Below, piece by piece: positions 3,137 to 31,100 of a DNA stretch of 32,672 bases. The notes under the pieces were generated by a model. That model made no database searches. It was not told the origin of the DNA and saw only the letters and a list, made by a program, of their open reading frames with translations. Source of the stretch: a virus; IMG/VR virus record IMGVR_UViG_3300038463_000495, positions 1 to 32,672 of that record. One strand, given 5' to 3'. Both the position numbers and the translations under genes were made by a program. Within the stretch, counting starts at the first letter, position 1. Every line of letters starts with the position of its first letter.

Positions 3137-3149
3137 AATTGTACATGAG

Positions 3150-3793: not shown

Positions 3794-3867
3794 GCTGCAT
3801 TTTCGCGGCATTATAAAGTGTGCGTGGACTTACTACGTACATACTGCACCAGAAGCAAGGAAGCAAA

Positions 3868-4524: not shown

Positions 4525-4537
4525 GTGTAGTGCCCTC

Positions 4538-4566
4538 TTGACAGCAAAGCATTGCTGTGCTATCAT
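4538..4566 (+). promoter_or_regulatory. Consensus sigma70-type promoter
   Basis: TTGACA at 4538-4543 and TATCAT at 4561-4566 are separated by exactly 17 bases. The -35 box is perfect and the -10 box matches at five of six positions. It lies just after a terminator and about 75 bases before the start of the 75-aa gene. It implies transcription by the host sigma70 holoenzyme and marks the start of the transcription unit beginning at 4641. Confidence 0.88.
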
Positions 4567-4640
4567 GCTAGCAATCTTGAGGTGCCCGTAAATTTTGTAC
4601 ACGAGAACAATTTTGAATCTGTACTCAAAGGAGAAGGAAG

Positions 4641-5727: not shown

Positions 5728-6379
5728 TATGGGAATGATCTACTTAGTGAGGGCAGCTGCTACGGTTAACGACGGGAAAAACTACCCGAAGCTTCTCGGA
5801 CGGCAAGTACCGCAGGGGTTATCGGAAACAGGCAAGAAGCAGGCGCAGAACCTTGCGGTACACCTCGCTAAGAGAAACATCACCGCGATCTACACGAGTT
5901 CGATGTCCGCTGCGGTACAGACCGCGCGTGCTATCCGTGCCGACCACGAGGTGCCGCTGACGTTTTGTAGCTCCCTGGTGGAAGCAAACTTTGGCACGTG
6001 GGAAGGGCAGGAGCTCGCCCAGTTGGTGCGAGATCCGTACCACCCGCAGTTTATGGGCGGGGTAGGCTTCCCGGAAGGAGAGACATTCAAACAGGTTTGT
6101 CGGAGGACTTACCAGTACATCAAACAACTAGCAGAGACCCACGCTCACGACAGGATTGTAGTGGTCTCGCACGAGTACCCCTTGCGCGCTCTAATCTGCC
6201 ACCTCTGCAAGGTGCCCTTTAGCAGGATGCGCGAAGTTGACCAGGAACCTGGAAGAGTAAGCTTAGTTCGAGTCTTCCGCGGGGTGCTTGAGCTGAAAGC
6301 TGTAAATAATGACCTCGCTTACGTTGAGGAGGACATGGAAGAACCATGCGATACGTTTTCTGTTTCCCAATCACCGTAG
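5714..6379 (+). CDS. Histidine-phosphatase (phosphoglycerate-mutase-like) protein lacking the catalytic His
   Basis: 221 aa with the fold signatures of the histidine phosphatase superfamily: IYLVRAAAT at the N-terminus, LSETGKKQAQNLA, IYTSSMSAAVQTARAI, an L.E..FG.WEG segment (residues 88-98), and VVVSHEYPLRALI. The RHG signature reads R13-A14-A15, so the phospho-accepting His is Ala. The Arg usual in 'S.L.RA..TA' is also Ala (residue 66). The second His (H153) and the acidic Glu90 remain. A normal phosphotransfer mechanism seems impossible, suggesting a binding or regulatory role. The start ATG lies inside the end of the upstream gene, with AAGGA before it, so the two are translationally coupled. 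Confidence 0.8.
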   Translation: MSTGDMGMIYLVRAAATVNDGKNYPKLLGRQVPQGLSETGKKQAQNLAVHLAKRNITAIYTSSMSAAVQTARAIRADHEVPLTFCSSLVEANFGTWEGQELAQLVRDPYHPQFMGGVGFPEGETFKQVCRRTYQYIKQLAETHAHDRIVVVSHEYPLRALICHLCKVPFSRMREVDQEPGRVSLVRVFRGVLELKAVNNDLAYVEEDMEEPCDTFSVSQSP

Positions 6380-6582
6380 CGGTGGTAACACCGGACGGTA
6401 ACCTTTCGCGCTTACGCTTCGGCGGCGGAGAGGTTGTTAATACGGTTGCACGCACCGTGCACCCGGTAGCCAACACTGGTTGGACAATGAACTTTGAGTT
6501 GACTGACGGCACTATGTTGGTCAACGTACCGAACCACGCGATTCGCTGGGAAGGCTATACCGATAAGGTAGGCACGAATTAA
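6346..6582 (+). CDS. Small hypothetical protein
   Basis: 78 aa, not recognised. It overlaps the preceding gene by 34 bases in another frame, with AGGAGG at 6327-6332 and GGAAG at 6337-6341 upstream of the ATG. The sequence looks all-beta (ITVAVVTPDGN, WTMNFELTDGTMLVNVP), with no Cys or metal motif and no membrane segment. It sits between the phosphatase-like gene and thymidylate kinase in one operon, which gives no clear functional hint. Confidence 0.7.
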   Translation: MRYVFCFPITVAVVTPDGNLSRLRFGGGEVVNTVARTVHPVANTGWTMNFELTDGTMLVNVPNHAIRWEGYTDKVGTN

Positions 6583-9238: not shown

Positions 9239-12200
9239 ATGGGTAAGCCAATAGCCGTAGAAAATAGCTTTACCGGCGAGCTTTACCTTTCGCAGTCGGG
9301 CTGGTTGTTATTAAGCGTGCCGAACGCGCTCGGGCAGGGCTACTTCAAAGCGCTGCACGAGCCCGGTGTCGAACTCCCTACCGGTGAGGAGGGTCGCTAC
9401 AATGCGCATATTTCTGTCGCTACAAGCGAAGAGGTCTCCAAGATCGGCGCATCGAATATTACTGAGCGCGGTAAGCACTTTGCCTATACGCTTAAAGGTG
9501 TTCGTAAGGTCGAGCCGGAAGGGTGGAACGACGTTAAAACGTGCTGGTTTGTCGAAGTCGATAGTCCTGCGCTTGAGAAACTACGACGCTCGTATGGTTT
9601 ATCAGCTTTGCCAAAAGATGGCAAACACAAATTCCATATCACTTTCGCCATTCTACGTCGTAGAGTTCTGGGGGCTAATGACGTCTCCAAATCCCCCGGC
9701 TTGGTTGCACCACCTAGCAGCGATACCCCGACATTCAAGCTCCACGACAAGCCTGGGGTACACCTCATTAAAGCTAGCAGCGCGTGCCCTGCGTGCAACG
9801 GACCCGTAATAGATATACGCGGCAAGCTGGTTTGCACTAAGTGCCACAGGATCTGCGAAGGGTGTTGTGAAGGCAGCCTCGCACTTTCGGTATCCAAAGC
9901 GGTGCGCAAAGGTTTAGAGAAGCAGAGCTTCGTCAAGCACGCGAGCTTCGGTGATGCCTTCCACTCTCTTCTAGAGCCCCTGGTACGCCACTGGTTACAG
10001 AGCCATGGTATGCAACTGGGACAGTTTCACCCAGACCGCAATTGGGCGGACCTCATGGAGAACCAGAGGTTTACCGACTTCCAGAACGAGGCGATGCGCG
10101 ACGCGGCAGCCCTGGACTCTTCTCCCCTGAAAATCCTGCACGGCTTTAATGCGCTCCTCGGCGGCTCCTGGGACCCCTCTATGGCTGCCCAGGATTCTAC
10201 CCTGCAAAAAGGGTACGCCGCGATCGCTCCGTACCTGATGCGGTGGTCCCCTAAGTTTTGGGACGAACTCCACGGCGGCACTGGTTCGGTAGCCTCCCTC
10301 GCGAACGCTATCGCGGAGACCCACCGGTATCGGTATGACATGACGCCGCAAGAGGCGGTGCAACGCGCTAACGGGGTGTTCAACGAGTTCTACTCCGACC
10401 CGATGATGCACAGGGGCTTTTCTGCGCGGGAACTTGGCGACATCTACCGAGAAGCGGGCAAGCGCGGATATATCGGACGTGATACAGACCCCACTAAGAT
10501 CTCAGAGAACCTCGCGCCCCTCGTTGGCGTAGCCTCAGCTATTCGTGACACCTCTGCGAGTACAGGGCAGCCCTTGACGAGCATCCCTGAGATCATGGAT
10601 CACTACGACAAGGTCCAAGCACAGTACCCTGGGCAACGTCCTGGCGCATTGGAAGGGTATATCCGCACAAACATGGAGATAGGGCGCCAGGGCGGTATGA
10701 TGTCCGCGGCGCTACTTCGCTCCGGGCAATCCCTGGGAGGCGAAGGCGACCCCAGTCTAGCCACCCTTAACGCACAGAACGAACAGCTCACCCAGAACGC
10801 GCGTAATAGCTCTGTAGGTCGAATGGTGGGCGCTACCGCGAGAATGCGCGCAGAGGGTCTGATACAACCAGGCTCAGAGACCGATAAGTTTCTAGAGCGG
10901 GCGCGGGCTGGACAGCTAGACGCAGCTTCCGCTAACCCTAGCGACTGGGCGGCAATGGTAGCACGCGACTCCGATACTTCGCCTGGCGCTGCGTGGGCGT
11001 GGTTACAGAATAACCAGAACCAGCGGTACTTAACGCCAGACCTTGCAATAGGTGTGCGACAGTCACAAGGCAATATCGACTTAAAGCCGATGCTGGACGG
11101 CGTCACTGAAGGTTACGACGATACGAACGACCCACACGGTATCATTCGGCAGTCCGCGCGTAACCAAATACTACAGAGTCGTGGATACATAGACGAGAGA
11201 AATTTTCAGCTCCTACAGGGACAAGACCTTACCGGAGTACAGCACGACGCTACCCAGAGGGGGCAGGTGGCGCAGAAAACCTCGCCGTACGGGTGGCACT
11301 CACCGACCGCGAGAGTAGTGGATGCGCTCAAGGAGCCGAACCCAACCCTAGGCGGTATCGGCAAACAGTTCTTGAATATTCAACCGCCACCGCCGGTACC
11401 GACAACACCGCCGCCACCTACGCCTTATACTCCGCCGCAGCCGCCAGTAGCACCAAAGATGGCGATGGACAAGCAAGCAGTAGGTCCCGGCTTCCGCGGC
11501 ATCCCCGATCGCAACGACATGGGCGACCTCTCTAAGCTGAACGCGGGTGAGATTATTGATCTGATCATTCAGCGACATAACGCTGTGCGCGCCGGCGAAC
11601 ACAAAGACTTAAGAATTGGCGACCAGCAGCGCGGACTATACTCTTGGGCGATGCGCAAGGATATGCCGGTGCCAGGGCAGAAAGTACTCGCCAACCAACA
11701 ACCCCTGCACACCCACGGATACGGTAGCTTCCAGGGCACCCTGGGACCTGGATACGGGCAGGGCACGGTACGAAGAGAGCGGAAGGGGCGCATCCTCATC
11801 ACGAATGCCAACCCGCAGAAAATCGAATTCACGACCGCGGATACCGGGACCCCAGAAAGGTTCGTCCTGTTTAAGCCAGAGGGCAAATTCGGACCGAAAC
11901 AGTGGCTCCTAATGAACAACACGCCAACAGAGGCGCCCTCCGCAGAGAAGCCACATATGCAAAGCATACCCGCCGAAGAAGTAGAGCCGTTTATCGAGCA
12001 AATGCAAACTGGCAGCACACACCAAGCTAAACTAGATGGCGCGCGTAGCTTGGTGAAGCTAATGAAGGGCGGCGTGGAAGTGCTCAGTTACCGTACGTCG
12101 AAACGCACCGGCGGTCCAATTACGCACACAGAGCGCGTATTCGGCGGTAGACCTAAAGTAGACTACCCGAAGAATCTAGAGGGCAGCACCCTAGTTGGTG

Positions 12201-12844
12201 AGCTAACCACACGCGATCCTTCAGGTAAAGTGATGCCTCCGCAGACTACCGGCGGCATATTAAACAGTACAATAGAAAACTCCCTAAAGTCCCAGAAGGC
12301 TAAAGGGTTACGATTACAAGACACGCTATTCGACGCGCAGAGCTTAGGCAAGACGCCTATCGATTACGCTACCATCCCGTACGCAGACAGGCGTAAAATC
12401 ATTGAGCAGGTGCTGCCGTACTTGCCGAAAAATCAGTTTGATATATCCGAGCAAGTCGAAGGACCGGAGGCGGGCAAGGCACTTTGGCGGCAGATTTCTT
12501 CAGGGCAAAATCCAATTTCTACTGAGGGCATGGTCTCGTATCCGCCAGTAGGGCCACCAGTTAAAGCGAAAGTATTACCGGAGAGCGATGTACACCTTAC
12601 GGGTACATTCCCTGGAAAGGGCAAGTACACTGGTAGGGGTGTTGGCGGATTTAACTACGCGCTCCAGCCAGGCGGACCCACGATCGGCGAGGTAGGCACC
12701 GGTCTTGACGATGATTTGCGAATGCAAGCATTTCAACGCCCAGCCGATTTTATTGGTAGGGTAGCGCGTATACGCTCACAGGGACAGTTTGCAAGCGGAG
12801 CGCACCGTGCCCCGGCACTCTTAGCTATTCACGAAGACTACTAA
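9239..12844 (+). CDS. Multidomain fusion: 2H phosphoesterase, zinc ribbon, virion-like middle, LigD-type phosphoesterase, ATP-dependent ligase
   Basis: 1201 aa. Residues 1-145 look like a 2H phosphoesterase, with paired motifs H57-I-S59 and H133-I-T135. Residues 183-210 are a zinc ribbon (C183-x2-C186, C199-x2-C202, plus C206, C209, C210). Residues about 220-740 resemble an internal virion protein, ending in a Pro-rich linker. Residues about 765-890 match the LigD 3'-phosphoesterase domain (H780, H788-x-D790-L-R792, then GYGQGTV). Residues about 925-1201 are an ATP-dependent ligase: motif I K931-L-D-G-A-R936, motif III VGELTTRD, motif IV E1096-G-M-V, motif V K1109-A-K1111, then an OB-like end. 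Together these would clean and seal nucleic-acid ends. No ribosome site precedes the ATG, which lies 5 bases after the PAS gene, so coupled translation is likely. The 2H call is weaker than the ligase call. Confidence 0.85.
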   Translation: MGKPIAVENSFTGELYLSQSGWLLLSVPNALGQGYFKALHEPGVELPTGEEGRYNAHISVATSEEVSKIGASNITERGKHFAYTLKGVRKVEPEGWNDVKTCWFVEVDSPALEKLRRSYGLSALPKDGKHKFHITFAILRRRVLGANDVSKSPGLVAPPSSDTPTFKLHDKPGVHLIKASSACPACNGPVIDIRGKLVCTKCHRICEGCCEGSLALSVSKAVRKGLEKQSFVKHASFGDAFHSLLEPLVRHWLQSHGMQLGQFHPDRNWADLMENQRFTDFQNEAMRDAAALDSSPLKILHGFNALLGGSWDPSMAAQDSTLQKGYAAIAPYLMRWSPKFWDELHGGTGSVASLANAIAETHRYRYDMTPQEAVQRANGVFNEFYSDPMMHRGFSARELGDIYREAGKRGYIGRDTDPTKISENLAPLVGVASAIRDTSASTGQPLTSIPEIMDHYDKVQAQYPGQRPGALEGYIRTNMEIGRQGGMMSAALLRSGQSLGGEGDPSLATLNAQNEQLTQNARNSSVGRMVGATARMRAEGLIQPGSETDKFLERARAGQLDAASANPSDWAAMVARDSDTSPGAAWAWLQNNQNQRYLTPDLAIGVRQSQGNIDLKPMLDGVTEGYDDTNDPHGIIRQSARNQILQSRGYIDERNFQLLQGQDLTGVQHDATQRGQVAQKTSPYGWHSPTARVVDALKEPNPTLGGIGKQFLNIQPPPPVPTTPPPPTPYTPPQPPVAPKMAMDKQAVGPGFRGIPDRNDMGDLSKLNAGEIIDLIIQRHNAVRAGEHKDLRIGDQQRGLYSWAMRKDMPVPGQKVLANQQPLHTHGYGSFQGTLGPGYGQGTVRRERKGRILITNANPQKIEFTTADTGTPERFVLFKPEGKFGPKQWLLMNNTPTEAPSAEKPHMQSIPAEEVEPFIEQMQTGSTHQAKLDGARSLVKLMKGGVEVLSYRTSKRTGGPITHTERVFGGRPKVDYPKNLEGSTLVGELTTRDPSGKVMPPQTTGGILNSTIENSLKSQKAKGLRLQDTLFDAQSLGKTPIDYATIPYADRRKIIEQVLPYLPKNQFDISEQVEGPEAGKALWRQISSGQNPISTEGMVSYPPVGPPVKAKVLPESDVHLTGTFPGKGKYTGRGVGGFNYALQPGGPTIGEVGTGLDDDLRMQAFQRPADFIGRVARIRSQGQFASGAHRAPALLAIHEDY

Positions 12845-15193: not shown

Positions 15194-16090
15194 ATGAAAC
15201 GTGCCATCCTTGTCACGCTCCTCATTGGAGCCATGTTTTCACCGCTGGCGCTTTCTTTCAGCGCCAACCCAGCTACCCCAGTCGTTAAAAGCATCCCAGC
15301 CTTAGCGCCGACTACGGCGGCGCCGCTCTGTAAGCCTGACGATCCCAACTGCAAAGTTACTTCTGGCACGGCAAGCGCAATTACGCTCCTGATGCCAACT
15401 GCACCGGTTAACGCTGGCGATATGATAACGTTGGTAGTGCAGGGAGTGCCCACCGCACAATTGCCTAATCTACAACTAGTCATAACGCCCACCGCGGGCA
15501 TTACTGTCGTGCCAGGACAAGGCTTGAAGCCCACTGATCCAGTATTCATCGTGTTCCAAGCGAAGACCACAGGTACGTATACGTTCGTGGTGGCTTCGCC
15601 AGACGGCGCGAATGGTATGCTCTTGACTACGCAAGATCTGGTAGTCCTGCCTCCACCCCCCGCGCCCACACCAGTACCGCCGCCTGGACCTGGTCCGACG
15701 CCAGGCCCGAACCCGCCGCCGACACCTACACCCACAAAACTGCGCGCACTGTTTCTGTACGATCCAGCTACGCTTGATAAGCTCACCGAAGCGCAGCGGG
15801 AAATCATTTACTCTGTGCAGCCAGGTTCAGTACTTGACTACGTGACTACCCACGCGCTAACCGATACGGTTACAGACGCCGAAGGCGGCACTCACACAGT
15901 GTCCGCGTGGCGCAGGTTGCCTACAACTTCTGCACCTACAGCTTTTGGCGCACTCTGGGCGCCGTTGTTTACCGCTGCTAAAGGTACCCCAGGTATCATA
16001 GTGCAGTCAGGTGACAACGTAACTCGGTTTGACTTGCCAGCTACGGCAGCAGACGCCTTGAAGTTGCTTACGCCGCTCGGAGGCAACTAA
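15194..16090 (+). CDS. Secreted Ig-like protein with Pro-rich linker
   Basis: 298 aa. The N-terminus has a clear signal peptide (MKR followed by a hydrophobic stretch, likely cleaved after about residue 23). Residues about 60-150 are beta-rich and Ig-like (MITLVVQGVP, GTYTFVVASPDG). Residues about 155-185 are almost only Pro, Gly and Thr. The C-terminal domain (ALFLYDPATLDKLTEAQREI onwards) is an unrecognised alpha/beta fold. The layout resembles exported bacterial proteins rather than a typical virion protein, so bacterial origin is possible. It begins a run of overlapping genes (TAATG) leading to the papain-like protease, which suggests a joint extracellular or periplasmic role. Confidence 0.75.
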   Translation: MKRAILVTLLIGAMFSPLALSFSANPATPVVKSIPALAPTTAAPLCKPDDPNCKVTSGTASAITLLMPTAPVNAGDMITLVVQGVPTAQLPNLQLVITPTAGITVVPGQGLKPTDPVFIVFQAKTTGTYTFVVASPDGANGMLLTTQDLVVLPPPPAPTPVPPPGPGPTPGPNPPPTPTPTKLRALFLYDPATLDKLTEAQREIIYSVQPGSVLDYVTTHALTDTVTDAEGGTHTVSAWRRLPTTSAPTAFGALWAPLFTAAKGTPGIIVQSGDNVTRFDLPATAADALKLLTPLGGN

Positions 16091-16281
16091 TGTCCGAAGA
16101 AGAGGTTATTGACCGCGCCTTCGAAACCAGCCTTGCACAGTTGTTTAGCACGCTCTTTACGAATGCGGCGAGCGCTGTAGACGCGCCTGTGGGAGTAGCG
16201 GATCGATTTCGCAAAGGGGTCAGAATACTGCGCGAGGTGCGCGAACAAGCACTAGTAATAGTCAGAGAGCAGACCAAATAA
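16090..16281 (+). CDS. Small hypothetical protein between secreted protein and protease
   Basis: 63 aa, mostly helical and charged (FRKGVRILREVREQALVIV), not recognised. Both ends overlap neighbours by one base (TAATG), so it is translated in a chain with the secreted protein and the protease. No signal peptide. It could be a chaperone- or inhibitor-like partner of the protease, but only position suggests this. Confidence 0.7.
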   Translation: MSEEEVIDRAFETSLAQLFSTLFTNAASAVDAPVGVADRFRKGVRILREVREQALVIVREQTK

Positions 16282-18167
16282 TGCACGTAATCAATGATGA
16301 TAATTTCCAGGACGTAATGCGGGAAGCTGCGGCAGCAGGTCACGGCACCGGTTACGTCCCTAGCGATACGAAGCTTGCTACCAAGTTCACCGATTCCTAC
16401 ACGGTTATTCCGAGGGACCAGTGGACTTCGTTAATCACGCAAGGACAGGGCACGTTCCTGTCTGATTTAATTAAGGCAGCTAAGATCCCTGCTAAAGACC
16501 AGGACGGACTCGGGTATTGTGCCACCGCAGATACCGAAGTATTGACGGAAAAAGGCTTTGTCCCGTGGCCAGATTACAACGGTACGGACTTGCTGGCTAC
16601 GGTTAATGTGCCTACTGGCATGTTGGAGTTCCAGGCACCGCTGCGCGTGCACGCGTACGAATATTCTGGCGAGATGATTTATAGTACTAATCGTCGGCTA
16701 GATTTTGGCGTTACACCGGATCATAGGATGCTCGTGCGCAAATGGGATGAAGCGTCGCGCAGGCTGGCATCCGAATACACCTTTCAGCGCGCAGGCGAAC
16801 TAGGTTGGTATTGCGGAATGATGCACGCGCCTCGCGGGTTCATCGGTACTGAGCTACGAAGCGTCGGTATCGATGATGACCGTACGTACGACGGCGACGA
16901 TTTTTTGGCTATGCTGTCTCTTGTATGTTCTGACGGTTACGCTGGCGGCACAGAAAATACGCGTAACTGGGTGAGCTTTGCGTGCTTCGACGACGCGCGG
17001 CACGCGCAGCTGTCCGCGTTAGCATTGCGACTGGGTTTCCACGAACAGCCAGGGCGCCGCGGTGTCTGGATTCGCTATAATGCTGGCGCGTTAGCAAACT
17101 GGATCAGAGCAAACTGCTACGTACACACAGATCTAGGCGCAGCGCATAAGCGCGTACCAGCGCTGGTCAAACTATGCAATCAGCGACAGATTCAGCATTT
17201 TCTGGACTGCTATGGCGATCGTACACACGATATGTCGCAGCCAGATCCTCAGTTTTTTAGCACCAGCAAGCAAATAATTGACGATTTACAAGAGCTGCAT
17301 TTGCGTATCGGAAAGCGTAGTAGTATCCACAAAGCCGAACCCAAGTCGTCGACGCTTCGGGCTACTGGTCAGGTAATACGCGGTAAGCATGCTTTATATA
17401 CATTGTGCGTCTCGAAGACTGAGCGGTTGTGCCTCGAAAAGAAGAAACATATCGAGCAAGATCGATATAACGGCGTAGTTTACTGTGCTACTGTGCCTAA
17501 TAGTACGCTTGTTACGCGTCGTAACGGTAGCGTACTAATTTCAGGTAATTGTTGGGTCTACGCTTCGACAGAGACGGTGGAAGTCTGCCGCGCTATTCAA
17601 GGACAGCCGTACGTCAGCTTGTCACCAGAGAGTGTCGGCGGACCGCTGACTGGGTGGCGCAACGAGGGCGGTAATGGCTTGGACGCCCTACAGCAACTTA
17701 CAACTACCGGCGCGTGCGCTAACAGCTTTATGGACGCCGCCAATAGCTTGCACTCCAGCCGGTGGAAAACCGGGTGGCAAGCAGACTGCGCAAATCACAA
17801 GATTACAGCGTCGTGGACGTCGGTGTCGTCGTTTGACGAAGTGATTACCGCGCTGCTTCTCCGCATCCCAGTGTCGATCGGTTTGGACTGGTGGGGGCAC
17901 CAAGTGCTGCTCACCGACCCGGCGCTTGTCGGTAACGGCTACGGCGTAGTATTCCGCAACTCCTGGGGCGAAGATTGGCCCTCTGCAGGTGCCTCTGGGT
18001 GGTCGACCTTAACCGAAAGCAAATCCCAACCAGACGGCTCGTTTGCGGCGATCAACGTAACCGCGCTCGACGCCTCGTGGCACCAGGGCAAGCGGGTTGA
18101 CTCGCTCAGTGTTCTGGACTTCCACCAACGGTGTATTCAAAAAGCCATTGACCTACTTAAGGTGTAA
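16281..18167 (+). CDS. Papain-like (C1 family) cysteine protease interrupted by an intein
   Basis: 628-aa precursor; the mature protease would be 79 + 205 = 284 aa after removal of residues 80-423. Across the splice junction the sequence reads QDGLGY|CWVYASTETVE, matching the papain 'Q-x5-C-W' core: Gln74 is the oxyanion Gln and Cys424 the catalytic Cys. The remaining catalytic residues are His540 (WWGHQVLL) and Asn560 (FRNSWGEDW). The catalytic Cys is also the intein's +1 residue, so the unspliced precursor cannot act as a normal protease. No signal peptide is seen. The start overlaps the upstream stop (TAATG). A thioredoxin-like gene follows 2 bases later. A second C1-type peptidase begins at 32361. 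Confidence 0.92.
   Translation: MHVINDDNFQDVMREAAAAGHGTGYVPSDTKLATKFTDSYTVIPRDQWTSLITQGQGTFLSDLIKAAKIPAKDQDGLGYCATADTEVLTEKGFVPWPDYNGTDLLATVNVPTGMLEFQAPLRVHAYEYSGEMIYSTNRRLDFGVTPDHRMLVRKWDEASRRLASEYTFQRAGELGWYCGMMHAPRGFIGTELRSVGIDDDRTYDGDDFLAMLSLVCSDGYAGGTENTRNWVSFACFDDARHAQLSALALRLGFHEQPGRRGVWIRYNAGALANWIRANCYVHTDLGAAHKRVPALVKLCNQRQIQHFLDCYGDRTHDMSQPDPQFFSTSKQIIDDLQELHLRIGKRSSIHKAEPKSSTLRATGQVIRGKHALYTLCVSKTERLCLEKKKHIEQDRYNGVVYCATVPNSTLVTRRNGSVLISGNCWVYASTETVEVCRAIQGQPYVSLSPESVGGPLTGWRNEGGNGLDALQQLTTTGACANSFMDAANSLHSSRWKTGWQADCANHKITASWTSVSSFDEVITALLLRIPVSIGLDWWGHQVLLTDPALVGNGYGVVFRNSWGEDWPSAGASGWSTLTESKSQPDGSFAAINVTALDASWHQGKRVDSLSVLDFHQRCIQKAIDLLKV
16518..17549 (+). other. Intein in the papain-like protease (344 aa, LAGLIDADG type)
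   Basis: Residues 80-423 of the precursor. Block A starts with Cys (CATADTEVLTEKGF). Block B is VTPDHRM. The homing-endonuclease core has two LAGLIDADG-like motifs (FLAMLSLVCSDGY and a second near QIQHFLDCYGD). Block F/G is VVYCATVPNSTLV ... VLISGN followed by Cys+1. The penultimate residue is Gly instead of the usual His, as in the first beta-subunit intein. The second endonuclease motif is degenerate, so homing activity is uncertain. It resembles both beta-subunit inteins of this window (shared YCATVP/FCVTVP block). Confidence 0.92.
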
Positions 18168-18169: not shown

Positions 18170-18481
18170 ATGTACGGACTTGTTCTAGCACTTGCGTTAG
18201 TTAGCGGACAGCCCGGGTATACCGGCGTTGTCTGGGTTAAATCGGCGGCGTGTCCCGCGTGCACAGCTATGGAGAAGTCAGTCGACAAACTGCTTAGCGA
18301 GGGCGCACCTGTTATGGTAGTAGTTGTGGCTAACCAGGCGGAGCTCGCGCCGTACGATAACCACGGGCTCGTCCCGGTTACGATTCTGTACCGTGACGGT
18401 AAGGTCGTGGGGCGGAGCGTGGGCTACTTGGCGGATACGCAGTTGCGTAAAATGTTGACGAGCGTAAAGAAGAAAGAATAA
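18170..18481 (+). CDS. Thioredoxin-like protein with CPAC active site
   Basis: 103 aa. The first 13 residues are hydrophobic (MYGLVLALALVSG) and may be a short signal sequence or anchor. The thioredoxin fold is shown by VVWVKSAACPACTAMEK, with redox pair Cys28-Pro-Ala-Cys31, and by the cis-Pro motif VPVT at residues 68-71, then ILYRDGKVVGRSVGY. It would reduce or exchange disulfides. It directly follows the papain-like protease (2 bases), whose activity depends on a free catalytic Cys, so it may keep the protease or secreted partner reduced. That link is inferred. A strong terminator follows. Confidence 0.85.
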   Translation: MYGLVLALALVSGQPGYTGVVWVKSAACPACTAMEKSVDKLLSEGAPVMVVVVANQAELAPYDNHGLVPVTILYRDGKVVGRSVGYLADTQLRKMLTSVKKKE

Positions 18482-19849: not shown

Positions 19850-20714
19850 ACAAGCGATGAACCCCGCCGACATCGAACAAGCACGCTCCGAAGCCGCACA
19901 ACGAATCTGGCAGATGATTTTGCTCGGCGGTGGTGCGGGTGCTGTAGGCGGCGCGGGGTTAGGGCTCGGCAAGATGATGACCGAGCAAAAGCCGTACACG
20001 CCCGATCCTTCCTTCCAGTCTGTCGACGTGATGTTGCCAGAGGAAAAGAAGAAGCAGCAGATCGCTAAGATCGCTGCCGCGTCTGTGACGGGCGCGCTCA
20101 CAAAAACAGCGAACCCGCAGCCTAGTGTTGCTGCGCAAGGGCTGGACTGGCTCACACGCAAAACGCGAGATATGATGCCCACAGATGGCTGGGCGGGCGA
20201 GTTATTCGGCAGCAAAGCGGACGGTGTCGGGCAAGTGCCCGCTGTGCTAGGTCTTGGCGTCCCCCTGGGGCTAGGCGCGATGTACGCGGGCTTTAAGGGT
20301 ACGCACGGCTTGGTTGATTCACTCCGCCAGCATGAGGTCGACAGCAAGCTTAAGAAGACAAAGGAAGACTACAGCAACTTTGTCTTGAAGAACCTCGCCA
20401 ACAAGCAAGCCAGCGACGCGGCGGTGGAGCGCGAACTGGATGACCTGGCGGACCTGTACGAGAAAGACGCTGTGGCGAACCCCCTGGCGCCGATTACCGA
20501 TAATCTACAACGCGTAAAGAACTACGCTGAGAGTATCTACGCCCCGTACGCGTTGCTGTCCGCGCTAGGCGCTGGCAAGCTCAGCTATGACTATTTCAAG
20601 AAGCGCAGCCCGGAAGAAATACAGGAAGAAGCCCTGCACAGGCGCGCGAAAGAGCGTTACGGCGGCACGACCCCAATCTTCTTAGAACCTAAGCCCGGTG
20701 GCGACCCTGTCTAA
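19815..20714 (+). CDS. Virion-like protein with glycine-zipper segments
   Basis: About 299 aa from ATG 19815. GTG 19794 and ATG 19857 are alternative starts and none has an ideal ribosome site. It has a Gly-rich hydrophobic stretch near the N-terminus (ILLGGGAGAVGGAGLGLG), a second in the middle (VLGLGVPLGLGAMYAGF), long charged helices (VDSKLKKTKEDYSNFVLKN) and a third weak hydrophobic part near the end. Not recognised as a family. The pattern suits an internal virion or ejection protein. Its stop codon overlaps the start of the RNA polymerase gene (TAATG), so the two are translated together. This supports co-packaging of the polymerase, but does not prove it. Confidence 0.75.
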   Translation: MQNNSHSGDLRKQAMNPADIEQARSEAAQRIWQMILLGGGAGAVGGAGLGLGKMMTEQKPYTPDPSFQSVDVMLPEEKKKQQIAKIAAASVTGALTKTANPQPSVAAQGLDWLTRKTRDMMPTDGWAGELFGSKADGVGQVPAVLGLGVPLGLGAMYAGFKGTHGLVDSLRQHEVDSKLKKTKEDYSNFVLKNLANKQASDAAVERELDDLADLYEKDAVANPLAPITDNLQRVKNYAESIYAPYALLSALGAGKLSYDYFKKRSPEEIQEEALHRRAKERYGGTTPIFLEPKPGGDPV

Positions 20715-23700
20715 TGGCAAATCTTGTAGACCTCGACAAGTTTGGCGGACCGCCCGGTACGCGGGCACTCGGCGACGTGGATGCTACGCGTACCGCTATC
20801 TACGATAGCGCGCTCTCCGCTGCTAAGACCCTAGAGCCGGTATCCAACCAGAAGTACATCCTCTCGCTCACCGACCCTGCGTTTGAGGGTCCAGAGGGCT
20901 ACACTATAGCCGACGAGAAGGCAGCTATCCTACAGGGTAAATCCCTAGGACGTCGGCTGAGAGGAACGTGGAACCTCCACACCAACGAACCGGAACCTAA
21001 GCTCGTAGACCAGCGGCGCGTCACCGTTGCGAACATCCCGCACATTACACCGAGAGGTACGTTTATCCTCGGGGGTAACGAGTACTCACTCTCCCACCAG
21101 ATGCGTTTGCGTCCAGGTATCTTTACGCGCGTTAAGGAATCTGGCGAACTCGAGTCCCACGTGAACGTAGCAAAGGGGCGCGGACACCGGTACTTCTTAG
21201 ACCCAGACTCTGGCGTCTTTCGTATTCAGATGGGGCAAGCGCGGATGCCGCTGCTGCCGGTGCTACAAACTCTCGGCGCTTCCGATAAAGACATCCGCGC
21301 AGCGTGGGGTAATGAGCTGTACGCTGCAAACGCCGCTAAGAGCGAACCGGGAGTACTCAAAAAGCTGTACAAGAAGTTCTCCAATAAGCCGATGCCAGAG
21401 GACGAGGGCGGAATAAAGGACGCTATCCACGCGGCGTTCGACGAGATGACCCTAGATCCAGAGGTCACCCAGCGCACCCTCGGCAAACCGTACAGCAAAG
21501 TAACTCCCGAGGTTATCCTAGCTGCAACTAAGAAGCTGCTGCGGGTACACCGACGTGAAGAAGAACCGGATGACCGAGACGCTATGGCGTTCCAGCAGAC
21601 GCTCGGGCCAGAAGATCTAATCTCGGAGCGGATCTCTAAGGGCGGTCCTGACGTACGCAGGGCGCTCTGGAAAGCAACCTTGCCTGGTAACCTGCAGCGT
21701 ATACAACCTGGTGTCCTAGACACCACGGTGCGTAACGCGATTCTGAAATCAGGGCTGGGTAACCCTCTTGAAGAAATCAATCCCGCAGAGTTATACGACC
21801 AGCGAATGCGCATAACGCGGATGGGCGAGGGCGGTATTGCGAGCGCTGACTCGGTGCCAGATGAGAGCCGCTCGGTACAGCCCAGCCACCTCGGTTTTAT
21901 AGATCCGGTACACACGCCGGAATGCTTTGGATTTTTATCCGAAGTGATGACTAAAACAGGTTGGATGTATTGGTCCACTGTAACGCCAGATACATTGTTT
22001 GCATGTCAGATTGACGGACGGCTTGAATATCATAAAGCCGAACGGCTTATTTGTGAGCCGTATGAGGGTCTGATGTATGGGGCTAGAAGCGCTACAACGA
22101 GTTACCTCGTGACTCCGACGCATAGAATTTGGACGCGTCCGGACCACGATGCATGTCCCAAATACCGTTTTGAAGAGGCGCAACGTACACACGAACGTCC
22201 ACGTAAGGTACAGTGTGGGGGCCACGGTGCATTTGTAGGCTGCGAGCTTGAATATTTCCGACTGCCAGCCGTGCCAATACGCAGCAACAGCCAGAAGGTT
22301 TATGACCCAATTCCGATCAATGATTGGGCCGAATTTATGGGCTGGTTTTTGTCAGAAGGTTGGACAGGTGGTAAATCGTCCATAAGTATCAGTCAGTCGC
22401 GTATGCGATATCCTAAGCATTGCACAGCAATCGAAGCACTATTCGAGCGGCTCGGGTGGACGTGGTCATATAAGGCGAAGAAGGGCGGCGGTGACTATAC
22501 TGTATGTGGCAAGCAGCTGGCCAAGTATCTAGGGCAATTTGGACTGTCACAGGATAAGTACATCCCCGAAGATTTGCTCAATGCGCCCGAAGTAGCGCGG
22601 CGCATCCTACTCGATACATTGCTTTGCGGAGATGGGCGTAAGGGCGCAACCTTACAGTATTGCACCGTAAGCAAGCGCCTCGCTGACGACGTACAACGTC
22701 TTTGTTTTGGGCTAGGTATTTCTACGCGCATCATCTTCGAACCCGACGAGCGCGAGCAGTCGAACTTTGGCGGTACGTATGTCGTTCATCTGCACAAGTA
22801 CAATGAACGAGTGTTCAATAATCGGCTAAAGGCTGCGGACAGTGGTTATTACACCCAGCACTACAAGGGTCTCGTTTATTGTGCCACCGTACCAGGTGGG
22901 CTGCTTTATTGCCGCCATGGCGATACTGGCGGGCATTGGACTGGTAACTCAGGCAAGATTGGCATCGACACACGTATGGCGTTCCGCACCCTTAAGGGTC
23001 ACGACGGGCGGCTCTACTCGCGCTTCCTAAACGCCAAAACCGGGCAACCCGAGTGGCAATCGCCGCAAGATCTAGCCGATAAGGTAGTAGCCTTTCCGGG
23101 CGAGTTAGAGAGCGGCGAGCGGTATGTGCGCGCGCAGCATAAGGGCAAGCTACAATATGTACACAGGAACAAAGTTGACCACCAACTAGCGCATATGACC
23201 GAGGCTTTCGGTCCCTTGGCGTCTCTAGTTCCTTTGAAGCAAAACGCCTTCGCCCAACGCGTCTCTATGGGTTCGCGCATGTTGACCCAGGCGTTGCCGC
23301 TTGTAGACGCCGAAGCCCCCCTAGTGCAATCAGGTATCCCGGGCACGAACGAATCATTCGAGTCCGCGTTGGGCACTGCTATGGGCGCTGCGCGGGCACC
23401 TACTGCGGGACAAGTGCTGGAAGTTACCCCCAACTACATTAAGCTGCGCGGCGACGACCGTAAGGTGCACCACGTAGAATTGTATAACCATTTTCCGCAC
23501 AACAGGAAAACATACACCCACAACACCCCGATCGTTAAGCCAGGCGATCGCGTAGCGCAAGATCAGTTGCTGGCGCCCTCTAACTTCACTGACAAAGAAG
23601 GAGTCACCGCGCTCGGGAAGAACCTACGCGTAGGATACATGGCGTACAAGGGACATAACTTCGAAGACGCGGTGGTTATGTCGGAATCCGCCGCAAAGAA

Positions 23701-25081
23701 GATGTCCTCCGAACACATGTACCAACACAGCTTAGACTTGGACGACGCCACCGTAGCGAACAAGAATAAGTTCATATCTATCTTCCCGGGGCAGTACGAC
23801 AAGAAGCTCCTGGACAAGTATGACGATGACGGTGTTATTAAGCCTGGGCAAACAGTGGCGATGGACGATCCGTTGGCGCTTGCGGTACGCGAACGCTCAA
23901 CTGGACCTAAGATGGGACGGCGCAAGGCATCCTGGTCGGACGCTTCTATCAAGTGGGAACACCACGCAGAGGGCACAGTTACCGACGTACACAAGGGCAA
24001 GGATGGCGTACACGTTGTCGTGCGCGCGGTTAACCCCGCCCAGGTTGGCGATAAGTTTTGTTATGATCCGCAAACGGCTATTTTGACGCGTCGTGGTTGG
24101 GTGCTCGCTGCAGAGGTGTCTAAGGACGACTACGTTGCGACTTTGAATGCCCAAGGCGTGTTGGAGTATCAGCAGCCTACGCACGTGTGGCGGTACGCAC
24201 ACGACGGACCGATGTACTATTTGAATACCAAGCACATTAACATGCTGGTAACACCTAATCATCAGCTGTGGGTGGCCCGCCCTGGGCAGGCGTATCAAGC
24301 AGTCGCAGCTGAGGATTTCTTATGTTCAGAGGGCGATTGGCTATTTAAGAAAGACTGTGAGTGGCACGGTAAAGAACTCGAATACGTGCAGCTTGAGCAC
24401 AAACGTGTTTACCAGCAGCGTACGCACGCGCTGTCCAAAGTGGCAGCGGACGACTGGTTGGCGTTCATGGGCTACTACTTGTCCGAAGGCTGGTGCACTG
24501 CACCTAGTTACGTAAAAATCGGGCAATTTCGCAGCTCGACACACTGGCAGAAAATAGAAGATTTATTAAACAGGCTAGGGCTGCCACATCGCTACGCAGA
24601 GGGGCGTTTTGAGATCGGCAATTGTTGGCTATACGATGAACTACTACCTCTAGGCAATAGCTATACGAAGTACGTGCCAGAATGGATACAAGAACTGTGT
24701 CCACGACAGCTGCGTATTTTTCTAGACGCGTACATGGACGGCGACGGACATCGCGGCGCGTGCTGGGAATATGGCTCGTCGTCTGAGCGGTTGGCAGTTG
24801 ATATACAGGTGATTTGTTTGAAACTAGGCTGGGCCGTCACGCTCAAGCAAACAAATCGTACTGATAACTGGCAGAAGCACCCACACTGGCGCGGACGTAT
24901 TAACCGTAAACAGTTACGGCCGCACTGGAAACGCGATAAAGGCAAGAAATATAAATCAAACCAAGAGGGTATGGTAGCGTATTCGGGTGACGTTTTTTGC
25001 GTCACAGTTCCCAACAATGTTATCTACTGCAAGAGGGAGGACAAAACGTACTGGTCACATAATAGTGGCCGGTACGGCTAA
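20714..25081 (+). CDS. rpoB: RNA polymerase beta subunit (front part) with two inteins; frame ends at a TAA inside a conserved motif
   Basis: 1455-aa precursor, 778 aa without inteins (residues 404-745 and 1116-1450). Beta-subunit landmarks: ITPRGTFILGGNEYSLSHQM, ITRMGEGGIASADSVPDESR followed by HLGFIDPVHTPE (the ETPEG region), and NPAQVGDKF before the second intein. After this intein the extein continues SGRYG and stops at TAA 25079-25081. The expected continuation (NDDKGVVSHIVPDDEMPH) is present at once in the +1 frame. Thus either one extra T lies at about 25079, or the phage uses +1 frameshifting, or the subunit is really split. This is a divergent multisubunit polymerase located in the virion-gene region, as expected for a packaged or early phage polymerase. 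Confidence 0.92.
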   Translation: MANLVDLDKFGGPPGTRALGDVDATRTAIYDSALSAAKTLEPVSNQKYILSLTDPAFEGPEGYTIADEKAAILQGKSLGRRLRGTWNLHTNEPEPKLVDQRRVTVANIPHITPRGTFILGGNEYSLSHQMRLRPGIFTRVKESGELESHVNVAKGRGHRYFLDPDSGVFRIQMGQARMPLLPVLQTLGASDKDIRAAWGNELYAANAAKSEPGVLKKLYKKFSNKPMPEDEGGIKDAIHAAFDEMTLDPEVTQRTLGKPYSKVTPEVILAATKKLLRVHRREEEPDDRDAMAFQQTLGPEDLISERISKGGPDVRRALWKATLPGNLQRIQPGVLDTTVRNAILKSGLGNPLEEINPAELYDQRMRITRMGEGGIASADSVPDESRSVQPSHLGFIDPVHTPECFGFLSEVMTKTGWMYWSTVTPDTLFACQIDGRLEYHKAERLICEPYEGLMYGARSATTSYLVTPTHRIWTRPDHDACPKYRFEEAQRTHERPRKVQCGGHGAFVGCELEYFRLPAVPIRSNSQKVYDPIPINDWAEFMGWFLSEGWTGGKSSISISQSRMRYPKHCTAIEALFERLGWTWSYKAKKGGGDYTVCGKQLAKYLGQFGLSQDKYIPEDLLNAPEVARRILLDTLLCGDGRKGATLQYCTVSKRLADDVQRLCFGLGISTRIIFEPDEREQSNFGGTYVVHLHKYNERVFNNRLKAADSGYYTQHYKGLVYCATVPGGLLYCRHGDTGGHWTGNSGKIGIDTRMAFRTLKGHDGRLYSRFLNAKTGQPEWQSPQDLADKVVAFPGELESGERYVRAQHKGKLQYVHRNKVDHQLAHMTEAFGPLASLVPLKQNAFAQRVSMGSRMLTQALPLVDAEAPLVQSGIPGTNESFESALGTAMGAARAPTAGQVLEVTPNYIKLRGDDRKVHHVELYNHFPHNRKTYTHNTPIVKPGDRVAQDQLLAPSNFTDKEGVTALGKNLRVGYMAYKGHNFEDAVVMSESAAKKMSSEHMYQHSLDLDDATVANKNKFISIFPGQYDKKLLDKYDDDGVIKPGQTVAMDDPLALAVRERSTGPKMGRRKASWSDASIKWEHHAEGTVTDVHKGKDGVHVVVRAVNPAQVGDKFCYDPQTAILTRRGWVLAAEVSKDDYVATLNAQGVLEYQQPTHVWRYAHDGPMYYLNTKHINMLVTPNHQLWVARPGQAYQAVAAEDFLCSEGDWLFKKDCEWHGKELEYVQLEHKRVYQQRTHALSKVAADDWLAFMGYYLSEGWCTAPSYVKIGQFRSSTHWQKIEDLLNRLGLPHRYAEGRFEIGNCWLYDELLPLGNSYTKYVPEWIQELCPRQLRIFLDAYMDGDGHRGACWEYGSSSERLAVDIQVICLKLGWAVTLKQTNRTDNWQKHPHWRGRINRKQLRPHWKRDKGKKYKSNQEGMVAYSGDVFCVTVPNNVIYCKREDKTYWSHNSGRYG
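21923..22948 (+). other. Intein 1 of RNA polymerase beta (342 aa), in the TPEG motif
   Basis: Residues 404-745. It interrupts PVHTPE|SGKIGID, the counterpart of bacterial ETPEGPNIGLI. It starts with Cys (CFGFLSEVMTKTGW), block B is LVTPTHRIW, and LAGLIDADG-like motifs are FMGWFLSEGW and LLDTLLCGDGR. The end is YCATVPGGLLYCRHG ... HWTGN followed by Ser+1. The penultimate residue is Gly instead of His. It is clearly related to intein 2 (FMG..LSEGW shared). Confidence 0.93.
24059..25063 (+). other. Intein 2 of RNA polymerase beta (335 aa), in the GDK..GR motif
   Basis: Residues 1116-1450. It interrupts VGDKF|SGRYG, the counterpart of bacterial GDKMAGRHGNKG, whose lysines contact the initiating nucleotides. 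It starts CYDPQTAILTRRGW, block B is LVTPNHQLW, endonuclease motifs are FMGYYLSEGW and FLDAYMDGDG, and the end is FCVTVPNNVIYCK ... YWSHN followed by Ser+1. It has the standard terminal His-Asn. The frame break lies only 15 bases after its end. Confidence 0.93.
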
Positions 25082-27119
25082 CGATGATAAGGGAGTTGTT
25101 TCACATATTGTGCCAGACGACGAGATGCCGCACACAAAAGACGGCACTCCCTTTGAGATGCTGCTTAATCCTTTGGGCGTCATTTCGCGCGGTAACCCGT
25201 CGCAGCTCATGGAGGCAAACTTAGGCAAGATTGCCAAGATTACTGGCAAGCCGTATAGGTTGCCAGACTTCGACAACATCAAAGATATGCGCGCACACGT
25301 CGAAGCTGAGCTGCAGAAGCACGGTCTGCAGAGCACAGAGGACGTTGTTGACCCCACAACTGGTCGTACAATTCCTGGTATCGCTACAGGGCATCGCTTC
25401 ATAATGAAGCTGCACCACACCGCCGAAGCTAAGTTGCAGGGGCGCGCCACTGGTGGATACACAGCCGAGGACACGCCCTCCAAGGGTGGCTCAACTGGCT
25501 CTAAGAGAATCGGGATGCTTGAATTGGGGGCGTTGCTCTCCCACGGCGCGTACCAAACCATTCGCGACGCGGGTATCATCCGCGGACAAAAGAACGAGGA
25601 CTACTGGCGCCAAGTAATGTCGGGGCACACCCCGCCCACTCCAAAGGTTCCGTTTGTCTACCAGAAGTTCCTCGTGCAGTTACAGGGTGCGGGCATCAAC
25701 CCGATTAAGTCTGGTACTACCACACACGTAGTGCCGATGACGAATAAGATGGCTACCGAGCTCACAGGTAATCGCGCCCTGCAAAACAAAGAAACAGTAG
25801 ACTGGCGCGTTGACCGACTCTCCCCTAAGAAGGGCGGGCTCTTTGATGAGACGCTCACGGGTGGACATACAGGCAACCGGTGGTCGTACATCCCCTTACA
25901 TGAGCCCCTACCTAACCCGGTGATGGAGGAGCCGATTCGGCATATCCTTGGGCTTACCGAGGCGCAGTTTGATGATGTCGTTGCGGGGCGTGCCAAGGTG
26001 CCCGGGCACGAGAACCTCACTGGACCGAAGGGCTTGGCGGATGCGCTAAAGAGCATCAATCTTGATAAAGAGATAGAGAAGGCACGTACAGAGATCAAAG
26101 GTAGCAAAGCCACCTACAGAGACAAAGCTATACGCCGGTTGGCGTACCTTAAGGCGGCGAAAGCGCAGGGACAGCACCCTGGTGACTGGGTGTTAGATCG
26201 TATGCCCGTGATGCCGCCGATCTTCCGTCCTGTATCTGTACTCGGTAGCTCTAAGTCACCCTTGATCTCGGACGTAAACCACTTGTACGGTGAAGTGTGG
26301 GACGCCAACGAAGGGTTAAAGCAACTTTCAGGCAAAACCGCGGACGTAGGCGACGAGCGGCTTGCGCTCTATAACGCGTGTAAGGGTGTCACAGGGTTGG
26401 GCGACCCGATCAAGCCAGAGAATAAACAAGACATCAAGGGTATCCTCAAGCAGGTATTTGGGGACGCGCCTAAGCTAGGGGTAGTGCAGCGCAAACTGCT
26501 GGGCTCTACCGTGGACTTAGTGGGGCGCGCGTCTATCACACCTAACCCAAATCTAGACATGGACCACGTAGGGCTGCCAGTAGATAAAGCGTGGACGCTC
26601 TACCAGCCTTTTGTTGTGCGTCGGTTGGTGCGTCGCGGGATGGGCAAGATCAAGGCTATGGAGGAGGTCAAAGAACGTTCCCCAGCGGCTTTGAAAGAAC
26701 TACAAGGCGAGATGGAAGTACGCCCCGTGGTTATTAACCGTGCGCCTGTACTACACAGGTACGGGGTAATGTCATTCTGGCCACAGTTAACAAAGTCCAA
26801 TACCCTAGAGATTCCGCCGCTGGTAGTTGGCGGGTTTGGTGCTGATTTCGACGGCGACGCAATGCAGTTTCACGTGCCGTCCTCGGACGAGGCGGTACAG
26901 GAGGCGCGCAAGAAACTACTGCCGTCTAGCAACCTGCTGAACGTGAACAGGTTCGATACCAACTACGCCCCAACTATGGAATATGTCGGAGGTCTCTGGC
27001 ACGCGTCATCTAAAGAAGACGGCAAACCTGTGCGCACCTTCCACTCGAAGCGAGACGCGATCGCAGCCTACAAGCGCGGCGATATAACCGCAGGGCAGAA
27101 GATTGAGATAGTAGGCTAA
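25065..27119 (+). CDS. RNA polymerase beta C-terminal part fused to beta' N-terminal part
   Basis: The start is uncertain: GTG 25065, GTG 25110 and ATG 25125 are in frame, none with a good ribosome site. Continuity with the upstream gene by frameshift at about 25079 is just as likely; from there the frame holds 679 aa. Beta part: KGVVSHIVPDDEMPH, LLNPLGVISRGNPSQ, then the C-terminal RIGMLELGALLSHGAY. Beta' part begins at SPKKGGLFDETLTGG without the Zn-binding N-terminal domain. It continues with MPVMPPIFRPVSVLG, VDLVGRASITPNPNLDM and RPVVINRAPVLHRYGVMSFW. The catalytic Mg-binding GADFDGDAM follows (DFDGD codons 26844-26858). It ends just after the GDITAGQKIEIVG region; the rest of beta' is encoded from 28120. 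Fused beta-beta' polymerases are known in a few bacteria, but the split in beta' is unusual. Confidence 0.88.
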   Translation: MAGTANDDKGVVSHIVPDDEMPHTKDGTPFEMLLNPLGVISRGNPSQLMEANLGKIAKITGKPYRLPDFDNIKDMRAHVEAELQKHGLQSTEDVVDPTTGRTIPGIATGHRFIMKLHHTAEAKLQGRATGGYTAEDTPSKGGSTGSKRIGMLELGALLSHGAYQTIRDAGIIRGQKNEDYWRQVMSGHTPPTPKVPFVYQKFLVQLQGAGINPIKSGTTTHVVPMTNKMATELTGNRALQNKETVDWRVDRLSPKKGGLFDETLTGGHTGNRWSYIPLHEPLPNPVMEEPIRHILGLTEAQFDDVVAGRAKVPGHENLTGPKGLADALKSINLDKEIEKARTEIKGSKATYRDKAIRRLAYLKAAKAQGQHPGDWVLDRMPVMPPIFRPVSVLGSSKSPLISDVNHLYGEVWDANEGLKQLSGKTADVGDERLALYNACKGVTGLGDPIKPENKQDIKGILKQVFGDAPKLGVVQRKLLGSTVDLVGRASITPNPNLDMDHVGLPVDKAWTLYQPFVVRRLVRRGMGKIKAMEEVKERSPAALKELQGEMEVRPVVINRAPVLHRYGVMSFWPQLTKSNTLEIPPLVVGGFGADFDGDAMQFHVPSSDEAVQEARKKLLPSSNLLNVNRFDTNYAPTMEYVGGLWHASSKEDGKPVRTFHSKRDAIAAYKRGDITAGQKIEIVG

Positions 27120-27853: not shown

Positions 27854-28120
27854 ATGATCGTAGAGCTGCATAACAAGCTAGGGTCGCCCCAAATCATCGA
27901 GGCTACGAGAGTAGTCCTCCGCGATAGGGTGGACGGCGCAATCGCTGTTGCGGTAGAAGTCGGACCGCGGCACTATTACGTTGTGCACAGAGGCGATGGC
28001 GACGTTGCGATGATGCGCGCGCTCCGCTCCCTGGGAATTTCTGAGACAGTCATCAGCGATATGGTGACGGACCTCCCGAAGCCTAAGGGGCAGCTACTTC
28101 TTCCTGACGGCGAGCAATAA
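27854..28120 (+). CDS. Small hypothetical protein in the polymerase operon
   Basis: 88 aa, not recognised. It starts directly after the previous stop and its own stop overlaps the start of beta'-C (TAATG), so it is co-translated with the polymerase. The N-terminal 50 residues look beta-rich (TRVVLRDRVDGAIAVAVEVG, HYYVVHRGDG). The C-terminal part is helical (MMRALRSLGISETVISDMV). Possibly a small accessory subunit of the phage polymerase, by position only. Confidence 0.72.
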   Translation: MIVELHNKLGSPQIIEATRVVLRDRVDGAIAVAVEVGPRHYYVVHRGDGDVAMMRALRSLGISETVISDMVTDLPKPKGQLLLPDGEQ

Positions 28121-31100
28121 TGCTACACACAACGATCGGACAACTCCTCGTCAATGACGCGCTACCTCCTGATATGCAGGACTACACGCGCTTGATGGAT
28201 AAAAAAGGCATCGGCAAGCTCCTCCGGGAGCTCGTCGATAAGCATCCGGACCAGTATCGCGATGTCGCCAAAAGGTTGTCCGACGTCGGGCGCGACGTGG
28301 CCTACACAAGCGGCTCGCAATCCTTCGGGCTCGAGCATTTGCGCCCCACCCCGTGTGTACACCTCTCGCGGCTGCGCTTAAATCAAGTGATTAGGAACAC
28401 GCTTTCTGGTCCTGGGTCGGATCAAGAGAAGCAAGACAAGATCATTGAAGCGACCGCGGAAGAGCACCAACGCTTGATGAAAGAGATTCCGCAAGAAGCT
28501 AAAGAGCGCGGAAATCCTCTAGCGGATCAGGTGCAGTCTGGTGCGCGCGGTAACCCCGCACAACTTAAGCGCTTAATCGGTGGCGACTTGCTATACGTCG
28601 ACCACCACGAAAACGTTATTCCGTTTCCGGTACAGACGAGCTTTGCTGAGGGGCTGCGCCCCGCTGAGTTTTGGGCGAGCACGTACGGAGCGCGTAAGGG
28701 GTTGATAGACGTGAAATTTTGCGTAAGTCGCTATACGTCAATACTTTACGGCGACTACACTACACGTCCTATTGAAGAAGTACTGCCAGGCGACGTGATA
28801 ATGGGAGCCGATACCACAGGCAGAATCTTCCCCACCCGCGTTACACGCGTGTTTAAAAACGGTGTGCGTGATTGTTACCGGTATGGTTTCCGTAAAGGTA
28901 GTACGCGCAAGCAGCTGCCGCTAGAACTAGTCGCCACAGAGGATCACAAGGTTTTAGCCAAAATCATAGCGAGCGATCCGAGCTCCTCTCGTAATGTGCG
29001 TGTACCTACCCTGCTGCCCCTGCGCAAAGCGAAGCTTCTAGCGCACCCCGAGTACTCCGCGTTCCTCGCCCGGGGCGAGTGCAACCAGCCACGTAAACAC
29101 GTACCAGAAGCGCTCCTGGCTGGGTTAATGCTCGGCGACGGGTGTATGGCTCCTTCTACACATGGGCAGTATTCCTTATCGTGCGCTGACCCAACGCTCC
29201 TTACCGACGTGGCAGACTACCTGGCTGGGTTTGGTTTACACCTTACCCGGTCTTGTGCCACGCAGTACACGTATAATTTGTCCCAACTTGTTAAATCTTC
29301 CCCAGTGACAGCTGTCATCGCTGGGCATAATAGCTTTACGCCTGGCATGCACAACGCCACTAAACGCTGGCTTAAAGAGTCGTTGCACGAAAAGCTGGCG
29401 CACGAAAAAGCACTGCCCGCGGATGTCTGGGACTGGGATGACGCGTCGCTGGGAGCGCTGCTCGGCGGAATATTCGCCACCGACGCCACGATTGCTACGG
29501 CGGCGGGGCGGGTCAGTATTACGCTAGTTATGACAGCCCAGGGTATGATGCGAGACCTACAGCGCCTGCTGGAGTTGCGTTTAGGTATTTGGACAACTAG
29601 TTTAACGTGCATACCTCTGCGGGCAAATATGCGGCATACGCAGTACAAGTTTAGCGTATGCCAGCCCGAAGCGATTACCCGATTCAGCGAACGTGTCGCG
29701 CTAGTTGGTTGTAAGCGACAGCAACTATCGACAGCGCTGCGCACGCTGCCGACACTGCGGCAGGAGCTTACTGCAAAAATTTGCTATAAGGAATTCGTAG
29801 GCGCTGTCGAAACGTACGATTTAGAGGTTGAGAATCCGGCGCATATGTACGTGCTGGCTAACGGATTAATCGTTTCAAACTCCACTCAGGACGCGGGCTA
29901 CTTTGCTAAGCAGCTCGGGCAGCTGTCCCACAGGCTTATGGTCACCGATATAGACGCACCAGAGGGCGCGGCTCCTCCAGGTTTGCGCGGACTTCCGGTA
30001 GCCACCGCGGACCCCGACAACGAAGGTGCATTGCTGGCACACCCGGTGGGCGAATACAAACGAAATACAATACTTACACCGAAGATACTAAAGGAACTTG
30101 ACGCAAATGGCGTTAAAAAAATACTCGTCAGAAGCCCTGCTGTCGGTGGTCCTAGTCCTGGTGGCGTATACGTCCGAGACGTTGGCGTCCGGGAAAAAGG
30201 TACGCTCCCTCCCGTCGGAGACATGGTCGGAATTGCGGCGGCCCAAGCACTTTGTCTCAGCATCGGAACCGAGGTCCGAATGGCCGATGGCAGTGCAAAA
30301 GCGATTGAGTTGATCCGCGTAGGCGATGTGGTTTTAGCTTGCGATATGGCAGGAACAGTACGACCTGCGCGGGTACTAGCCGTACACGCAAACGGCGTGC
30401 GCGAATGCGTGCGTACCGTTTTTAGGCGCGGCACGGGTAAAAGTATAGCAGAGAACTTGCTTGTATTGGATTCTACGCAGGATCATAAATATCTCGGATA
30501 TGCGCGTACGTCACATCAGGCGATGTGTGCACCTGTATTGACAACTCCTGCAAGTTTATCGAACAACGCGCAACGGCATTACGCTTGTTTACCCGTCAGC
30601 TTCGATGATACGGGTAATCGTGTCGAGCCGTATGCGCTGCTGTTGGGTATAGCGATTGGTGACTGCTGTTATACTGGCGGTGTTAGTAGCAATGGTATTG
30701 ATCTGGCGTGTGCTGATAGCTCGCAGATCGCTGACATGTCGCAATACATGGCTAATTTGGGCCTGCGCTTTAAGCAGCAATATGATCCGATTCATTATCG
30801 CATCGTGGACGACAAGCGCTTTACGTATACGTACGTAAACGGCCGACGTATACGCAATCGCTTTCGCGGCGTATTATTGCGATACGGACTGTGGGGACAG
30901 TATTCTGGACAGAAGAGATTGCCGCAAACGTATGATTGGGACAACCAGAGCGTGGCAGCGTTGATTGCGGGCCTGCTTGCAACGGACGGCTGGGTGCATG
31001 TTGGCGCGAACGGTTGTGTATCCGCGGGTTTTAGCAGTAACTCGAAGGCAATGATGGAAGAGTTGCGAGTATTGTTGTCCGTCCGTTTCGGTATTTACAC

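Follow-up and report, generated by a model that had tools for sequence, protein, structure and literature searches.

An intein at the catalytic cysteine of a papain-like phage protease

Active-site insertion is a general rule for inteins, and native intein sites lie on average 8.3 Å from active-site residues, compared with 21.1 Å for other Cys, Ser and Thr residues (PMC3359363). In the available excerpt of a study on mycobacteriophage inteins (PMC5050341), these elements localise to functional motifs of phage genes and spread from phage to phage, features that they share with the intein described here; their hosts are terminase, nucleotidyltransferase and thymidylate synthase, and no protease is among those named in that excerpt, unlike in the present case. 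The intein of a C1 mycobacteriophage nucleotidyltransferase is 25-27% identical to ours.

The large subunit of the RNR of Salmonella phage SP3 (L166; NC_048001.1, positions 45500-50000) carries two inteins, the second of which is located at NL/C...GN/CVEI (here and below, slashes mark splice junctions). This junction falls on the established catalytic Cys of that enzyme, and insertion at such a residue is therefore already known in kind. As in the protease studied here, the +1 Cys of the intein is the catalytic Cys of an enzyme encoded by a phage, and splicing would be required to obtain active enzyme, whereas the host is a radical enzyme of nucleotide metabolism in SP3 and a protease in our case. 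The P1201 thymidylate synthase was considered as a further precedent and rejected, as the +1 residue of its intein is the Ser of SVLEH, which is not an established nucleophile. The mycobacterial intein DnaBi1 (PMC6195587) also has a Cys at position 4 of block F and, in principle, an oxidisable catalytic Cys; however, DnaBi1 is a class 3 intein with a measured redox response, whereas the intein described here is assigned to class 1.

Papain/cathepsin peptidases of family C1, as well as xylellain of Xylella (3ois), have the fold and the Gln, Cys, His and Asn residues in common with the host protease. In contrast to the papain/cathepsin enzymes, the latter is phage-encoded, has a short N-terminal extension in place of the usual inhibitory propeptide, and adjoins, or in one relative is fused to, a secreted proline-linker protein. 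The literature searched yielded no C1 (papain-like) protease that carries a natural intein.

The interrupted protease and its genomic context

The window, i.e. the whole stretch of DNA that was analysed (32,672 bases), contains an open reading frame (16281..18167; features written with two dots are located on the plus strand) that encodes a precursor of 628 aa consisting of a papain-like protease and an intein. Alignment with intein-free homologues delimited an N-extein of 79 aa that ends with QDGLGY (16281..16517). It is followed by the intein of 344 aa (16518..17549; precursor residues 80-423, starting with CATADTEVLT and ending with LISGN), which is backed by an allele of 59% identity occupying the very same position in locus L087, and by a C-extein of 205 aa starting with CWVYAS (17550..18164). 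With the junctions QDGLGY/C...GN/CWVYAS, the +1 Cys (17550..17552; extein C80, precursor residue 424) is the catalytic nucleophile of the protease, confirming the claim of an earlier note on this DNA that the intein is placed exactly at this residue. The spliced extein comprises 284 aa and contains QDGLGYCWVYAS, WGHQV and RNSWG. Besides C80, it harbors the oxyanion-hole Gln (Q74; 16500..16502), the catalytic His (H196; 17898..17900) and the catalytic Asn (N216; 17958..17960), all of which are conserved in homologues. The same note described Gln and Cys as 344 residues apart, which holds for the length of the intein but not for the distance between Q74 and the +1 Cys, which is 350 residues in the precursor and 6 after splicing. 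Because Cys1 of the intein stands in the register of the nucleophile (QDGLGY-C), the protease motif seems intact in the precursor; Cys1 and everything after it, however, belong to the intein.

The hallmarks of a class 1 intein, namely Cys1, a TxxH motif in block B (T66-P-D-H69; 16713..16724), a terminal Asn (Asn344) and a Cys at +1, are present, and by these motifs the intein is predicted to be a self-splicing member of class 1. Its penultimate residue is Gly343 and not His, and Gly is found likewise in the inteins of loci L087 and L101. The penultimate His is a common assisting residue of class 1 inteins but does not define the class, and endings in GN occur also in RNAP and RNR inteins. A sequence search against solved inteins gave no match to the window intein.

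On Pfam alone the family assignment of the extein would be weak, since the match to Peptidase C1 (E 0.0017) lies just under the cut-off. In sequence matches to the PDB, the extein was paired with papain-family chains with the catalytic Cys aligned (procerain, E 2.6e-5). These matches, together with the conserved Gln, Cys, His and Asn residues and the AlphaFold model of an intein-free homologue, firmly identify the extein as a C1 protease. In a comparison of 13 proteins (11 intein-free homologues together with the exteins of the window and of L087), the Gln, Cys and His residues do not vary, and Asn is absent only from one truncated copy; homologues with a different catalytic Cys, which would have spoken against the claim of the earlier note, did not appear. 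The AlphaFold model of the intein-free homologue L097 (pLDDT 85, pTM 0.87) adopts the papain fold, as cathepsins and procathepsins match it best in the PDB (E about 1e-9). In this model the active-site helix (residues 90-105) begins with the catalytic Cys90, which means that the intein interrupts the protein at the helix N-cap. The AlphaFold model of the precursor, which is poor (pLDDT 65.8) and too uncertain for distances, shows no more than that a papain fold occurs together with an intein fold, for which TliVMA is the best match. By chemistry and fold, the papain site should be unable to form in the unspliced protein, and the precursor should therefore be proteolytically inactive until splicing, as had been proposed. 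An inhibitory propeptide of the I29 type was not detected in the extein by Pfam scan.

The gene upstream of the protease (15194..16090) encodes a protein with a probable signal peptide, a proline-rich linker and a C-terminal domain, and similar genes are found upstream of the protease in most homologous loci. In L091 (3272-4891) the intein-free protease and the upstream secreted proline-linker protein form one open reading frame. This fusion suggests that the two proteins act together, and that the protease may have an exported protein as its partner, with the cell envelope as their place of action.

The window genome is very intein-rich. Four further inteins are present in the 32.7-kb window, all of them in genes of a multi-subunit phage RNA polymerase (beta and beta' parts; 20714-25081, 24987-27119 and 28120-32307) and two per subunit, with the junctions HTPE/CFGF..TGN/SGKIG, KF/CYDP..SHN/SGRYG, KF/CVSR..VSN/STQDAGY and AL/CLSI..VSN/SERL. 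Related loci contain many inteins as well. At positions 25060-25085, the frame of the RNA polymerase beta gene breaks a few codons past its second intein (WSHN/SGRYG stop) and the sequence goes on in a different frame, in the open reading frame starting at 24987, while the relative L003 is continuous at this place; an assembly error, a mutation or frameshifting might each account for the break. Elsewhere in the window (9239-12844), a fusion protein of 1201 aa combines a 2H phosphoesterase domain, a zinc-ribbon-like motif and an ATP-dependent DNA ligase-like domain.

Same-site inteins and intein-free alleles

No DNA-level similarity of the window to annotated phages was found, and a single-sequence search for close relatives of the extein yielded one weak match in the phage collection, whereas viral contigs gave no match. 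Relatives were reached only through RNA polymerase-linked loci and alignment queries. Intein-free homologues were obtained at the syntenic position beside phage RNA polymerase genes (L002, L069 and L003), from an alignment search in viral contigs (L082, L083, L090-L093, L095 and L096) and in a contig of a Planctomycetota MAG (L097). The comparison with intein-free alleles of related phages, which the earlier note had recommended, could be made: the nearest protease relatives of the window are the intein-free L091 (56%) and L097 (54%). Codons flanking the insertion site are conserved among the empty alleles, with 31-32 of 40 shared between the window and L091, L092 or L097. The intein-free relatives have the same architecture; their N-terminal extension is comparably short, and they lack a propeptide. 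Locus L092 contains in addition a second, truncated N-terminal part of the protease (6033-6473; KNQDGLGYCWVYGSTSC, followed by an unrelated tail), about 1.2 kb past the full-length gene.

An intein at the identical residue is present in L087 (TQDGLGYC/H...ISGN/CWTWS). A third one, more divergent (32% identical), is inserted at this residue in L101 (NQGNTGS/CH...ISGN/CTANA; 2584-4587), a phage contig of IMG record 2868057807 that also appears as L120. Downstream of its junction follow GGHQVAVVG and RNSWGEGWG, with a match to Peptidase_C1 (Pfam, E 1.2e-6), marking it as an intein at a papain nucleophile. Pattern scans for GN/CTANA or GN/CWAF[AS] at papain sites retrieved only this contig (as L120); the other matches were uninterrupted or unrelated frames. 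As the extein offers 54 candidate +1 positions (Cys, Ser or Thr), a random choice would hit the nucleophile in about 1 of 54 cases, and with inteins at the same residue in three phages a coincidence is very unlikely. The papain nucleophile is a new, recurrent intein site.

The inteins of the window and L087 are 59.3% identical, whereas the proteases that carry them are only 26.9% identical. In the protease tree, at least two changes of intein state are bootstrap-supported, and the two intein-bearing proteases (window and L087) were grouped in 0 of 200 bootstrap trees; L087 is located on a long branch. The difference in identity together with the changes on the tree argues that the intein is mobile apart from the protease, and these comparisons show the pattern expected of an element that homes to one fixed target.

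Origin of the insertion and consequences for the protease

Very probably, the protease gene was invaded at its catalytic-Cys codon by a mobile intein of class 1 that carries a LAGLIDADG homing endonuclease domain, and the presumably dead precursor is a by-product of this event. Since no part of the gene is better conserved than the Cys codon and its surrounding QDGxGYC stretch, these would provide a dependable target for the endonuclease, would make imprecise loss of the intein costly and would supply the required +1 nucleophile. After translation, judging from the motifs and from known class 1 chemistry, Cys1 would attack the Tyr79-Cys1 bond, the N-extein would be transferred to Cys+1 and Asn344 would cyclise. 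The exteins would be joined, and from then on the +1 Cys would act as the nucleophile of the protease. Silence of the protease before splicing would be a side effect of the insertion site and not an evolved control, and the intein looks like a selfish element at an unavoidable site rather than a purpose-built on/off switch.

It is possible, though doubtful, that the intein is decaying, having lost homing while splicing was kept by purifying selection because the unspliced protease is dead. A LAGLIDADG_3 domain (PF14528, E 2e-5) was detected in the intein by Pfam scan. Its first LAGLIDADG motif, assigned by alignment (FLAMLSLVCSDG; 16902..16937), is intact and retains the acidic residue, which speaks against decay, whereas the second motif (FLDCYGDR; 17199..17222), which is covered by the PF14528 match, is degenerate, with GDR instead of GDG. 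At the same position PDQ is found in L087, while L101 retains GDG, in an alignment that is ambiguous by two residues. The degenerate second motif suggests that homing may be weakened or lost in the window copy, and every splicing residue is intact, as would be expected from a decaying but splicing intein. Decay would also fit as a later stage of the invasion proposed above, and confidence in the two overlaps.

That the intein has instead been retained as a zymogen switch, with conditional splicing in response to redox state, temperature or a host signal delaying the protease, is improbable. A small thioredoxin-like protein with CPAC is indeed encoded 2 bases past the protease stop (18170..18481), as stated in the earlier note, which had regarded it as a possible part of the control, and it might reduce a disulfide between Cys1 and Cys+1, both of which are present as potential partners. 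PMC5874633 describes a reported inhibition of splicing in the Pyrococcus abyssi PolII intein by a disulfide between its catalytic cysteines. In addition, Cys323 (VYC; 17484..17486) at position 4 of block F (nomenclature of PMC4031507) corresponds to the redox-sensing Cys118 of DnaBi1 (PMC6195587), and the protease lacks a recognisable inhibitory propeptide. However, pairs of Cys1 and Cys+1 as well as a Cys at position 4 of block F are ordinary in inteins (PMC4031507). The thioredoxin-like gene is not linked to the presence of the intein: it is absent beside the intein-bearing L087 and L101/L120, none of the other protease loci compared contained a relative of it, and the thioredoxin-like gene behind the intein-free L093 is a different one (PF13899). 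This comparison contradicts the thioredoxin part of the switch. The N-terminal extension of intein-free alleles is about as short, so that nothing indicates replacement of a propeptide by the intein, and the enzyme copes without a switch. Intein mobility likewise argues against a purposeful switch, and regulated activation is unsupported. It is likewise very improbable that the nucleophile acts as a redox trap, a natural intein-based zymogen in which the Cys1-Cys+1 disulfide would block splicing until a reducing cytoplasm or the phage thioredoxin-like protein releases it. A chance insertion or a mis-assembled chimera, for which one could invoke that the window is a single metagenomic record, has next to no probability, as it is refuted by two independent contigs with the same junction to the residue and the frame is open through both junctions.

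Invasion by a mobile intein thus remains the preferred explanation. With related inteins at the same catalytic residue in three divergent phages, the site is a recurrent one, and a naturally spliced papain nucleophile could serve as an engineering template for protease activation. Because both intein-free alleles and two inteins that share an allele are available, the system offers a clean natural test of why inteins favour active sites, i.e. of selection for splicing versus regulation.
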